DNA from: Pengzhenrongella sicca
GTDB taxonomy: Bacteria > Actinomycetota > Actinomycetes > Actinomycetales > Cellulomonadaceae
Direction of reading: 5' to 3'
DNA: 64,000 nt
Assembly: GCF_017569225.1 (NCBI RefSeq)
Contig: NZ_CP071868.1
Span: 2,666,001 to 2,730,000, forward strand
Positions within the stretch are counted from its first letter, which is position 1, and every line of letters starts with the position of its first letter. The position numbers were made by a program, and so were the translations under genes. Below are positions 24,595 through 28,234 of this stretch, one piece after another. The notes under the pieces are model-generated. The model worked only from the letters and a program-made list of their open reading frames with translations. It was not told the origin of the DNA and did not search any database.

Positions 24595-25350
24595 TCAACC
24601 GCGGCGGGTGAGGTGCGGCGGTCTGACCTCGTCCCACAGCTCCTCGTAGCAGCGCGCGGCCCGGCTGCTGGGCGCGAACGCGGTCACCGGGGCCCGGTGC
24701 TCGGCCATCTGCTCGATGATCGACAGCGCCGGGATCTCGGTGCTCGCCACGCGGGTGCCCCCGCGTGGGATGTTCTCGATCACGTCGTTGTGCAGCCGCT
24801 TGCGCCGGTCGACCATGGAGAAGAAGGCGACGAGGTCCGGGCGGGGCTTGTCGGACTCGGCGACGAACTGCTCGAGCTGGGCCAGCGTGCGCAGCGAGAG
24901 CGTCGCGGGGATCAGCGGCACGAGCAGGGTGTCGGCCGCGTGCAGGACGTTCTCCGACATCAGCGAGATGCTCGGCGGGCAGTCGAGGAAGACGACGTCG
25001 TACTCGTCCGCGACGCCGTCGAGCAGCTGGCCCAGCCGCCGCGTGCGCCGCTTCGCGTCGTCGAGCTCGAGGTCCATGTTGCGGTAGCTGAAGTCGGCGG
25101 GCAGCAGGTCGAGCCGGTCGAAGTCGGTCCCCTTGAGCGCATCCTCCAGGGGGCGTTTGCCGGTGACCAGGCCGTGCCCGCCGCCCTTGACCCGCGGGCG
25201 CACCCGGAAGATGTACGTCGCCGCGCCCTGCGGGTCGAGGTCCCACAGCAGGGTGCGTTGCCCATCGCGAGCGGCGAGGTGGGCGAGGTTGACCGCCGTC
25301 GCCGTCTTACCGACGCCACCCTTGATGTTGTACGTCGCGTAGACCTTCAC
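24595..25350 (-). CDS. orphan ParA-family ATPase
   Basis: A 251-residue ParA/MinD ATPase. The deviant Walker A motif is YNIKGGVGKTATAVNLA at the N-terminus, switch I LLWDLDPQGAATYI, and Walker B VVFLDCPPSISLMS. There is no N-terminal HTH and no ParB gene or parS-like cluster nearby, so it is not a chromosome or plasmid segregation ParA. Such orphan ATPases typically position protein cargo such as carboxysomes or storage granules on the nucleoid. Its GTG start (25348-25350) overlaps the stop of the CYTH/CHAD gene in GTGA, so both are made from one message. This suggests a ParA whose cargo involves the CHAD protein. Confidence 0.9.
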   Translation of the reverse strand: MKVYATYNIKGGVGKTATAVNLAHLAARDGQRTLLWDLDPQGAATYIFRVRPRVKGGGHGLVTGKRPLEDALKGTDFDRLDLLPADFSYRNMDLELDDAKRRTRRLGQLLDGVADEYDVVFLDCPPSISLMSENVLHAADTLLVPLIPATLSLRTLAQLEQFVAESDKPRPDLVAFFSMVDRRKRLHNDVIENIPRGGTRVASTEIPALSIIEQMAEHRAPVTAFAPSSRAARCYEELWDEVRPPHLTRRG

Positions 25351-26885
25351 CCGATGCCCCCTAGTGCGCGCAGCTGCTTGTCGGTGGACCGCGCCGCGAA
25401 CCGCGCGTACGCGTCGTCGAACTCGGCACGGGCCATGCGCTGGTCGGTGTCGAGGTGCCCGATCAGCTCGCCCATCGCGAGCAGCGCTCGCGCTGTCGTC
25501 CCGTCCGCCATCATCTCCCCCGCGAACACCTGCAGCGCGTCGCGCTGCACCTGGGAGTCCTGGAACCGACCGAGCACGTCCTGCAGCCCCGTCAGGTCGG
25601 CGATGGCGCGCTTGCGCGGACCCGCCGCGAGTATGGGGGCGAAGACCTCCAGCGCGTAGCGCAGGTCCTTGCAGCGTCCGCGCAGGGTGTGCAGGTCGTC
25701 GGCCGGAGTATCGGGGGCGATCGCCGCGCCGCCACGAACGACCCGCCGGTGCGCGCGGGCGATCGCCGCGCCCGCGAGCTCGGCCGCCGACGGCGCTCCC
25801 AAGGCGTCGCGGGACGCCTCGGCCAGCTCGCCGAGCTGCTGCGGCCAGTCCTGGACGAGCCGGCGGAACCGGGCGGACCGCAGCGCGCGGACCAGCTCGG
25901 CTCGCGCGGCCTCCCGGCGGCGCCGCACGTGGGCTGCGAAGGGCTCGAGGTCGGCGGCATCGGCCGCCACGAGCCACCGCGCCATCGCGGGCAGGCCCAA
26001 CGCGTACACGTCGAGGTCGCGCACGGGCGCAGTCACCGCGCCGAGCCAGCGAAACTCGGGCTCCCAGCGGATCGCGCGCTCGGGGCCGAGCACCGGCCGG
26101 CCGAGCCGGAGGGTCGCCCGCGTGCGCCGCAGGGCGACGCGAAGGTCGTGCAGGAACTCGCTGTCGACGTCGTCGAGCACGCCCGGCACGTTGGCCAGCA
26201 TCGACGCGGAGAACCCGGTCAGCACCCGGGCCAGGAGCGCGGCCGCCGGCTCCGTCGAATCGCCCGTGGGTGGAGTGCCCCCGCGCCGCGCGGGCGCGGC
26301 GTCCGGGCGCCGGGGCACGCCGGGATCCTCCTGGAGCCCGGCGTCGACGAGGAGGCCGACGGCGCGTCGCCCCTCGCCCGCGTACCCCCGGAGCGGACGC
26401 ACGGTGAGCCGTGCGGGCGAGAGGCCGGCGGCAGAGAGGTCGCCGGCGGCGGGCTCGTCGAGCTCGAGGCGCGCGACGAGCTTTCGGTCGCCGTTGCGCA
26501 GCTCCAGGCCGCGCAACCGACGACGCTCGGTCGCGACCACCACGAGTGCGCGAATGCCGGCCACGGGAGCGACCGCGTCGCGGACCGGACCGGCCGGCAG
26601 CACCTGGGCGAACGCTGGCCACAGCGCGTTGCGGTCCAGCTCGGCCACCGTGACCGCGCCGTCGGCACGCCCGAGCTCGAGTCGAGAGTCCGCCGCGCCG
26701 GTTCGCTGCCGTAGCTCGAGCCCGGCCGCTTCCAGCCGACGGTCGAAGGTATCCAGCCGGGTGCGGCGCTCGCCGCGCGGCCCGGTGACGTCGACGACGA
26801 ACTCGCGCGCCAGCTGCGCGACGATCGCGTCGAGCACAAGGCCCCGACCATCGACGGTCTGCATCGCTACGGGTGGCCCGGTCAT
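25347..26885 (-). CDS. CYTH-like/CHAD domain protein
   Basis: A 512-residue, Arg-rich protein. Residues about 10-200 form a CYTH-like region (TRLDTFDRRLEAAGLELRQR) that lacks the N-terminal ExExK catalytic motif, so triphosphatase activity is doubtful. Residues about 225-500 form a CHAD domain, with the conserved FLHDLRVALRRTRATLRL (His) and later LHTLRGRCKDLRYALEVF. CHAD domains bind inorganic polyphosphate and locate to polyphosphate granules in bacteria. Its stop overlaps the ParA start by four bases. The start could be ATG 26885 (used here) or the ATG seven codons later. It lies 60 bases downstream of dinB, so read-through from the SOS promoter is possible. Confidence 0.87.
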   Translation of the reverse strand: MTGPPVAMQTVDGRGLVLDAIVAQLAREFVVDVTGPRGERRTRLDTFDRRLEAAGLELRQRTGAADSRLELGRADGAVTVAELDRNALWPAFAQVLPAGPVRDAVAPVAGIRALVVVATERRRLRGLELRNGDRKLVARLELDEPAAGDLSAAGLSPARLTVRPLRGYAGEGRRAVGLLVDAGLQEDPGVPRRPDAAPARRGGTPPTGDSTEPAAALLARVLTGFSASMLANVPGVLDDVDSEFLHDLRVALRRTRATLRLGRPVLGPERAIRWEPEFRWLGAVTAPVRDLDVYALGLPAMARWLVAADAADLEPFAAHVRRRREAARAELVRALRSARFRRLVQDWPQQLGELAEASRDALGAPSAAELAGAAIARAHRRVVRGGAAIAPDTPADDLHTLRGRCKDLRYALEVFAPILAAGPRKRAIADLTGLQDVLGRFQDSQVQRDALQVFAGEMMADGTTARALLAMGELIGHLDTDQRMARAEFDDAYARFAARSTDKQLRALGGIG

Positions 26886-26945
26886 CGTGGGGTTCACGAT
26901 ATTGCGGGCGGCGCGCAACCGCGCGCAGACGCGCGCGGCGCGCCG

Positions 26946-28205
26946 TCAGACGTCGTGCTCGGCGAGCTCGCGGAACTCGTCGGGCACGGCGGCGGCCGGG
27001 CGCAGCACCGCCGGGAGGTACCCGACGGCGTCGGCGCCGAACCGGTCGCGGATCTCGTCCATCGACCCGTCGACCGCGCCCCGCGCGGCGCCGGGGGCCG
27101 ATCCTGCGCGCCACGGGTCGGGCGTGGCGAGGTCCAGCTCGAGCTGGACGGCCCGCTGGTCAGCGAGCTTCGACACGGCCACCGCGAGCAGGGTGATCTC
27201 GGTGGCCGCCGACGCGGACCCGATCGCGGACCAGACCAGCCGCTCGGCGATCTCGGTGAGCGTCAGGGTCGCCGAGACGGGCTCGGCCACCGTGTGCGAG
27301 CGGGTGACCGAGCGCATGCCGACGAAGCGCACCCGCACGGTCACGGTGCGGCCGGCCCGGCCCTTGGCCCGCAGCCGGCGCGAGACCCGGTCGGCCAGGT
27401 GAGCCAGCACCGCCCGCACCTCGGCTGCCACGGCCGGCCGCCGACCGAACGCCGACTGGGCGCCCACCGACCCGGCGCGACGCGCCGTGACGACCGGCCG
27501 GACGTCGTCGTTCCTGGCCATCGCGCTGAGCTTGTGGCCGACGGCATGCCCCAGGATGCGCTCGAGCGCCCCGGACGGGATCTGGGCCAGGTCGCCGATC
27601 GTCCGGATGCCGAGGTCGGCGAGGCGCTGGCGATGGACCGGCCCGACGCCCCAGATGAGTCCGACGGGCAGCGGGTCGAGGAACTCCCGCTCATGGCCCG
27701 GCTGCACCACGACCAGGCCGTCCGGCTTCGCCACCTGGGACGCGATCTTCGCCAGGTGCTTGGTCCGGGCGGCCCCGACCGAGATGGGCAGCCCGATCTC
27801 GGCGCGGACCCGACCCCGGATCAGCACGCAGATGCGCTCGGGCGGGCCGAACAGGTGCGTCGAGCCCGCGACGTCGAGGAAGGCCTCGTCGATAGAGACC
27901 CGCTCGACGAGCGGGGTCACTCCCGCCAGAACCTCCATCACCGCGTCCCCCAGCCGCTGGTACTCCCCGAAGTGGCCGCGGACGAACAGCAGCTCGGGGC
28001 ACAGCTGCGCGGCGCGCCACCCGGTCATGCCGCCCTGCACGCCGAAGGCCTTGGCCTCGTATGACGCCGCGAGGACGACGCCGCCGCTCGGCCCGCCGCC
28101 GACCGCGATCGGCCGGCCGCGCAGGGCGGGATCGAGCAACTGCTCGACCGAGGCGTAGAACGCGTCGAGGTCGGCATGCAGGATCGTCGGTCCGCCGTCG
28201 GGCAT
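26946..28205 (-). CDS. dinB: DNA polymerase IV (Y-family)
   Basis: A 419-residue Y-family translesion polymerase. Palm motifs are HADLDAFYASVEQ near residue 10 and the catalytic VSIDEAFLDV near 105. The thumb has the helix-hairpin-helix LIWGVGPVHRQRLADLGIRT, and a little-finger domain spans about 245-345. The C-terminal 70 residues are Ala/Pro/Asp-rich, without a perfect clamp-binding QLxLF, though VQLELDL resembles it. The gene copies damaged templates in the SOS response. The ATG is leaderless (TATCGT, six bases, ATG), and a consensus LexA box sits directly upstream. Confidence 0.95.
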   Translation of the reverse strand: MPDGGPTILHADLDAFYASVEQLLDPALRGRPIAVGGGPSGGVVLAASYEAKAFGVQGGMTGWRAAQLCPELLFVRGHFGEYQRLGDAVMEVLAGVTPLVERVSIDEAFLDVAGSTHLFGPPERICVLIRGRVRAEIGLPISVGAARTKHLAKIASQVAKPDGLVVVQPGHEREFLDPLPVGLIWGVGPVHRQRLADLGIRTIGDLAQIPSGALERILGHAVGHKLSAMARNDDVRPVVTARRAGSVGAQSAFGRRPAVAAEVRAVLAHLADRVSRRLRAKGRAGRTVTVRVRFVGMRSVTRSHTVAEPVSATLTLTEIAERLVWSAIGSASAATEITLLAVAVSKLADQRAVQLELDLATPDPWRAGSAPGAARGAVDGSMDEIRDRFGADAVGYLPAVLRPAAAVPDEFRELAEHDV

Positions 28206-28218
28206 CCTTCCACGATAC

Positions 28219-28234
28219 TCGAACAGGTGTTCGA
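28219..28234. promoter_or_regulatory. LexA (SOS) box of dinB
   Basis: TCGAACAGGTGTTCGA is a perfect match to the actinobacterial SOS box TCGAAC-N4-GTTCGA. It lies just upstream of the dinB -10 element (TATCGT on the minus strand, 28212-28217), 14 bases from the ATG. LexA bound here would block the promoter. The box also lies next to whatever begins to the right, but I see no convincing divergent gene. Confidence 0.92.

Follow-up and report, generated by a model that had tools for sequence, protein, structure and literature searches.

An overlapping CHAD-parA gene pair

Does a gene for a predicted polyphosphate-binding protein that overlaps a gene for a ParA-type ATPase mark a system that places polyphosphate granules? 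Polyphosphate (polyP) is the bacterial phosphate store. The placement and inheritance of its granules is an open question, to which the pair described here brings named genes, named residues and many hosts. The pair lies in a stretch of 64,000 nucleotides from Pengzhenrongella sicca (contig NZ_CP071868.1, positions 2,666,001 to 2,730,000; hereafter the window, with positions counted from its first letter) and consists of a gene for a CYTH-like/CHAD protein followed by an orphan parA. We find that this CHAD-ParA pair is a real, widespread module. Its tie to polyP appears very probable, and on balance we favour a role in positioning polyP granules. The features that carry this argument are the following.

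24595-25350, minus strand: parA, an orphan ParA-type ATPase of 251 residues with a GTG start (Pfam AAA_31, 1.6e-35; the Walker A motif is KGGVGKT and includes the signature lysine of ParA proteins)
25347-26885, minus strand: CYTH-like/CHAD protein of 512 residues, proposed polyP-granule adapter (Pfam CHAD, 2.2e-52; predicted fold)
25347-25350, minus strand: GTGA stop-start overlap of the CHAD gene and parA, read from the sequence (four-base ATGA or GTGA in 46 of 67 relatives)
26325-26885, minus strand: N-terminal degenerate CYTH (TTM) barrel, residues 1-187, without ExExK (fold match, profile comparison, alignment)
25530-26216, minus strand: CHAD domain (residues 224-452), which contains the polyP pore residues H246, R249, R253, R289, R409 and Y410 (Pfam, alignment with CtCHAD)
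25350-25490, minus strand: C-terminal extension past the CHAD core, residues 466-512, a candidate ParA contact (profile coverage)

The CHAD reading frame runs on the minus strand from an ATG at 26885 to a TGA at 25347; an alternative upstream TTG at 26918 would give 523 residues.

Recurrence of the pair across phyla

Loci were collected with ParA sequences as the only queries (A1; nine sequences of the window's family), and CHAD played no part in their selection. At least 592 pattern stretches were obtained, of which 579 were confirmed and 80 loci kept. A CHAD frame stands directly upstream of ParA on the same strand in 67 of the 80 loci, or 67 of 77 when three loci at contig ends are set aside. 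The 13 loci without CHAD comprise these three (217 bases or fewer from ParA to the contig end), seven from Methylobacter and three others. Gaps within the 67 pairs range from -4 to +61 bases, with an exact four-base overlap in 46 (27 ATGA, 19 GTGA); in G047, a genome of the window's genus, the overlap reads, by eye, as ATGA. Pairs occur, to judge by record titles, in Actinomycetota, Gammaproteobacteria, Thalassobaculum (Alphaproteobacteria), Deltaproteobacteria/Myxococcota, Acidobacteria and Dormibacterota, mostly in metagenome bins. Because 67 of 80 separately fetched ParA loci share a CHAD neighbour, the adjacency is more than chance, and this recurrence across phyla led us to reject a lineage-specific or accidental arrangement. 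No third gene is conserved over the 80 loci: frames overlapping ParA or CHAD aside, other clusters reach at most nine loci.

Among 396 Actinomycetota genomes, ParA was found in 50 at 1e-40; in 24 of these it reaches 190 bits or more, and 13 of those 24 have it next to CHAD by coordinates. A profile of partner CHADs returned 79 positives at 1e-35 in the same genomes, and its top 13 (380-578 bits) are exactly the 13 genomes with an adjacent pair, a ranking to be read with caution, since the rows of the profile were themselves CHADs linked to ParA and some searched genomes may share species with those rows. Among 349 Pseudomonadota genomes, ParA was present at 1e-55 in 65 and CHAD adjoined it in five (G624, G843, G662, G638, G678).

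The window's own family is patchier, with ParA at 1e-30 in 11 of 101 genomes. Two of these (L012, L013) are Soj lying between xerD and scpB, their frames read by eye. The coupled pair occurs in two of the remaining nine (G000, G047), and no CHAD adjoins the ParA of six (G036, G053, G013, G020, G050, G078). The ninth genome, G098, has a CHAD 511 bp upstream of ParA with a small frame between, and this CHAD, at 115 bits against the partner profile, belongs to the ordinary CYTH type. At this locus (L019:5534-8447) the CHAD keeps an ELERK motif and the ParA is of the same subfamily as the window's; the CHAD-ParA link may have arisen here separately, or may be seen here in an earlier form.

A predicted polyP pore beside a degenerate barrel

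The AlphaFold model of the CHAD protein has a predicted local distance difference test score (pLDDT) of 93.8. Its C-terminal half matches the CtCHAD-polyP complex 6qva with a template modelling (TM) score of 0.89 (target). According to passages of Lorenzo-Orts et al. (PMC6537752), mutation of CtCHAD His253, Arg256, Arg260, Arg296 and Arg418/Tyr419 lowers polyP affinity by about 6- to 150-fold. The equivalents of these pore residues by phmmer are H246, R249, R253, R289 and R409/Y410 in the window's protein, and all 62 of the 62 partners aligned carry them unchanged. These kept residues predict that the protein binds polyP itself.

The N-terminal half gave no Pfam match to CYTH at E of 1 or below. 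It is nevertheless CYTH-like, because its fold matches CYTH/TTM barrels (TM up to 0.61, target) and hhalign comparison with a CYTH-CHAD set returned 97.6% probability. K135 and G167 in this half are invariant in all 62 partners, and ExExK is found in the first 60 residues of none of them. We treat it as a fold relative of the CYTH/TTM triphosphatases that lacks ExExK, and do not class it as an enzyme. An unpicked recount over all distinct collected CHADs in which 169 residues or more precede the CHAD domain found ExExK in 1 of 78 partner-type proteins (375 bits or more) versus 27 of 52 others. Hand-picked CYTH-CHAD controls had it in 14 of 16 (L225 and L028 dropped from 18); the unpicked figure is the weaker contrast and is the count that we trust. 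A sister group of CHADs (L266-L282; 235-371 bits) has the partner architecture with ParA not adjoining, and ExExK is gone in most of its members.

The profile covers the C-terminal extension in 80 of 80 partner-type versus 28 of 73 other CHADs, and the alignment with CtCHAD also runs through it. Contact of ParA with this tail or with the dead barrel is conjectural.

Polyphosphate and phosphate genes around the pair

Several relatives place the pair among genes of polyP and phosphate metabolism. One locus (L115) reads, in order, the C-terminal part of PPK1 at the contig end, CHAD, ParA, CYTH, an FRG domain, NUDIX and histidine phosphatase. Six Paracoccus plasmid records match ParA, and each of the four opened carries a small protein, CHAD, ParA, CYTH and NUDIX, a cluster that in P. 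marcusii CP157 stands behind pstB-phoU-phoB. Against the partner profiles, three Paracoccus CHADs score 339-360 bits and two ParAs 304-309 bits; in one record (L250) the ATPase is annotated as two pieces. Genes of PstS type (PBP_like_2) lie within about 3 kb of the pair in four loci (L103, L108, L110, L135), with PhoU also in L110. In L068 and L072 the genes after ParA are of NUDIX-histidine phosphatase type; in L074 a NUDIX gene follows, and another lies upstream on the opposite strand in L095. Passages of PMC8003754 describe NUDIX and histidine phosphatase genes as common neighbours of ppk.

The small Paracoccus protein (L244, L248, L250, L251) is a conserved, basic product of 62-67 residues that precedes CHAD with a four-base overlap and looks by eye like a ribbon-helix-helix protein; it had no match in the 80 loci.

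PPK1 was found in 23 of 27 named genomes (20 of 24 with an adjacent pair, 3 of 3 without). In Pseudomonadota it occurs in five of five genomes with an adjacent pair, in none of 18 of a sister ParA clade linked to RnfH (see below) and in 22 of the remaining 42 (Fisher, 3e-5 for 5/5 versus 0/18 and 0.0098 for 5/5 versus 22/60, uncorrected for kinship). P. sicca itself, assembled as a single 4.4 Mb contig, has one PPK1 gene about 2.4 Mb from the pair, and PPK1 was thus rejected as a neighbour of the window's pair. The genome holds two CHAD genes, the second with an intact CYTH domain. We regard the link of the CHAD-ParA pair to polyP as strong and very probably correct.

The ATPase and what it might do

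On its fold and its deviant Walker A motif, the window's ATPase belongs to the ParA branch of the ParA/MinD ATPases. K10, K15, D39 and D123, which are Walker A or catalytic residues, do not vary among the 60 relatives aligned. The model (pLDDT 91) aligns with the ten best Soj/ParA chains in Foldseek at TM 0.80-0.87 (query), with identities of 23-35% to Soj/ParA chains and 18-19% to McdA. A basic stretch is kept (R183 in 58 of 60 relatives, K or R at 184 in all 60) and, by analogy with Soj, may form the DNA-binding face.

No helix-turn-helix (HTH) family was matched in a Pfam scan of the ATPase, no ParB was seen among eight neighbouring proteins scanned by Pfam, and the window holds no parS-like site within three mismatches of the consensus. 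Matches to ParA at 1e-25 occur in 21 of 72,556 plasmid records (best identity 48.8%). Matches in 13 phage records all stay under 60% identity, with 32-34% for five among the matches listed. With no parS-like site and so few and distant matches, a plasmid or phage partition gene was rejected as the principal explanation. A long ParA frame in L129 was considered as a ParA-CHAD fusion and rejected, since its tail is dissimilar, judged by sequence only.

The nearest solved relatives bear on a first alternative, in which ParA is an ATP-dependent switch on the CHAD protein that controls polyP synthesis, degradation or access and so sets the amount of polyP, not its place. BcsQ and FleN, which are ParA relatives, act as regulators. 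The Pfam BcsQ and MipZ models both exceed their cut-offs on the window's ATPase, and the pair adjoins polyP or nucleotide enzymes (PPK1, CYTH, NUDIX, histidine phosphatase) in L115 and Paracoccus, as a switch would suggest. However, the closest structures are chromosome or plasmid ParA/Soj, with BcsQ and FleN ranking lower, and no NCBIfam equivalog cut-off was reached. We consider a switch unlikely, if the best of the alternatives.

Less likely again is a reversed direction, in which polyP granules use CHAD to recruit and titrate ParA and thereby change nucleoid organisation or segregation under phosphate or starvation stress. PolyP granules are linked to cell-cycle exit, which would suit this, as would the Soj-like character of the ATPase and the position of polyP granules in the nucleoid region given in passages of PMC6537752. 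Against it stand the lack of a parS-like site in the window and the ParA tree, in which the window's subfamily is set apart from the Soj-type rows. Shared transcription or co-transfer of two genes with no physical or functional partnership is hardly credible: ParA relatives without CHAD and the patchy arrangement in the window's family would fit it, but the overlapping adjacency recurs across phyla, ParA-linked CHADs take the top places against the profile, and a partner-type CHAD (625 bits) and ParA are both present in Methylobacter tundripaludum, unlinked on separate contigs.

A proposed granule-positioning module

Granule positioning is the best reading because an orphan ATPase of Soj-like character here accompanies a partner that binds a polymer. 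By analogy with McdA/McdB, which positions carboxysomes, the CHAD-ParA pair is somewhat more likely than otherwise to be a polyP-granule positioning module, with contact, nucleoid binding and movement all expected from the ParA family. We hypothesize that the CHAD protein would grip polyP through its basic pore and present ParA with a different surface, for which the C-terminal helix and the dead CYTH barrel are the possible choices we see. Dimers of ParA-ATP would bind the nucleoid non-specifically, and granule-bound CHAD protein would stimulate ATP hydrolysis, clearing ParA locally. Granules would then be drawn up the ParA gradient and so be kept apart and shared between daughters. For a broader claim the balance is even: a dedicated, ATP-driven ParA system may space and partition polyP granules in at least Actinomycetota, Pseudomonadota, Myxococcota and Acidobacteriota, with a catalytically dead CYTH-CHAD protein as its adapter, while a sister ParA clade appears to have an RnfH protein in the adapter's place and may serve another cargo.

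Several findings weigh against this reading. Adjacent CHAD genes are missing in 11 of the 24 Actinomycetota and 60 of the 65 Pseudomonadota genomes with ParA relatives. Four genomes of the window's family (L004-L007) encode a ParA 79-83% identical to the window's with no adjacent CHAD, and a partner-type CHAD was not found in these four genomes, two of which are incomplete bins; ParA can therefore exist without its partner CHAD. Conversely, the 17 next-best CHAD loci in Actinomycetota (371 bits or less) have no such ParA in the fetched flank of up to 1.5 kb, and a Thiodictyon plasmid carries a partner-type CHAD (592 bits) with no adjoining ParA. ExExK is also lost in 25 of the 52 other CHADs, many of them without ParA, and a dead barrel is thus no special mark of ParA-linked CHADs. 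In the window's protein, G403 and T432 stand where 59 of 62 relatives keep flanking lysines, and the auxiliary distal front-side basic pair of CtCHAD, Arg438/Lys441, corresponds to A429/T432 and is not kept (K at 432 in 59 of 62). PolyP or Pho genes, sought with few queries, adjoin only about nine of 67 pairs and not the window's, and four of 24 genomes with an adjacent pair, all bins, gave no PPK1 match. CHAD and ParA distances correlate (r=0.81, 60 pairs), a figure that, like the PPK1 contrast, is confounded by shared descent.

A preliminary description of this locus had reported the two genes with their GTGA overlap, a CYTH-like half without ExExK, an ATPase without HTH and no parS nearby, all of which held at the positions given, the last two within the scope of the Pfam scan and the parS search above. 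It had also called for a survey of the adjacency, with confinement to one lineage as an adverse outcome; the pair instead recurs across phyla. Its proposal of a polyP-granule system is borne out in part, by the recurring overlapping pair, the pore residues, the missing ExExK and the polyP/Pho genes of some relatives, and its suggestion of SOS control is not.

Relation to known systems

Like McdA/McdB as presented in passages of PMC13052382, the CHAD-ParA pair is a two-protein module of a ParA-type ATPase and a cargo-bound adapter, with nucleoid spacing here proposed. It differs in that the proposed cargo is polyP, the adapter is a degenerate CYTH-CHAD protein and the ATPase is nearer to Soj/ParA than to McdA. 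Spacing of polyP granules on the nucleoid, proposed here, is attributed to AlgP in Pseudomonas aeruginosa (passages of PMC9239181 and PMC13052382), but AlgP is a histone H1-like protein for which those passages claim no relation to CHAD or ParA. The CHAD fold and polyP-binding residues are shared with the CHAD phosins (Ralstonia CHAD proteins, CtCHAD and PptA; PMC6537752, in part), from which the window's protein differs in the overlap of its gene with parA and in a CYTH half without ExExK.

The nearest precedent by gene order is the Acidithiobacillus folD-ppk-parA-CHAD cluster, whose synteny of ppk, parA and CYTH-CHAD is already in print (PMC10892726, 2024; PMC6416229, 2019). As far as the excerpts of these accounts go, the ATPase is termed a plasmid or chromosome partition protein and the discussion concerns copper resistance and cAMP, unlike the positioning proposed here. 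A 2023 gene-neighbourhood study of ParA cargos (PMC10241942) does not use the word 'polyphosphate' in its main text. No proposal of positioning by CHAD and ParA was found among the papers listed in searches of open PubMed Central, judged by titles and the start of abstracts. A 2025 review (PMC13052382), in the passages that concern granules, gives AlgP for P. aeruginosa, describes the responsible Caulobacter proteins as not identified and states that energy use in polyP granule placement remains to be seen. Its recurrence in distantly related bacteria makes the CHAD-ParA pair a promising candidate for the machinery by which polyP granules are spaced and divided between daughter cells; if this is true, the list of ParA ATPase cargos gains an inorganic polymer.

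ParA relatives with and without CHAD

A ParA tree of 150 rows was built by a quick method, with one row per genome for repeated loci. The CHAD-linked label changes 16 times on it, compared with a mean of 48.3 after shuffling (none of 500 shuffles was as low). Long branches that meet were flagged by the tree program at L012 and L053. The window's ATPase falls in a starred set of 12 rows, eight with CHAD and four without, so separation or loss has occurred close by.

A sister clade of 18 Pseudomonadota rows has no CHAD (L182, L183, L186-L188, L191-L200, L202-L204). In 17 of its 18 loci an RnfH-family gene, the family being named for L187, diverges from parA. The RnfH-like protein is a possible second ParA adapter or cargo. 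In six loci it bears a Lys/Ala-rich repeat tail, which we take to resemble histone H1/AlgP.

On a Bacteroidota plasmid from Pontibacter (L246), a ParA 44% identical to the window's has nothing CHAD-like nearby, and the next gene encodes a KilA-N protein.

dinB and other neighbouring genes

The minus-strand order is dinB, the CHAD protein gene, then parA, with these features upstream of the pair.

26909-26945, minus strand: strong RNA hairpin in the dinB-CHAD gap, a possible terminator or attenuator (folding of 26886-26950)
26946-28205, minus strand: dinB (DNA polymerase IV), a neighbour judged to lie outside the system (family match; beside no other pair in the loci searched)
28221-28232, no strand assigned: SOS-box-like palindrome GAACN4GTTC 5' of dinB

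The palindrome is exact and its only exact copy in the window is this one. From dinB under such control, the preliminary description had suggested that DNA damage might alter the level of the pair. The hairpin between dinB and CHAD folds at -34.5 kcal/mol (z -2.0), a value that 8 of 200 shuffles equalled or bettered, and among the frames of the loci searched for DinB the window's own was the only one. Because of this hairpin, and because DinB stands beside no other pair in those loci, SOS co-regulation of the CHAD-ParA pair is unsupported, as is the idea of an SOS-coupled operon. On the other side of the pair, 3' of parA, lie genes for a protein without a Pfam match that appears by eye to be membrane-bound, a Usp protein and an epimerase.

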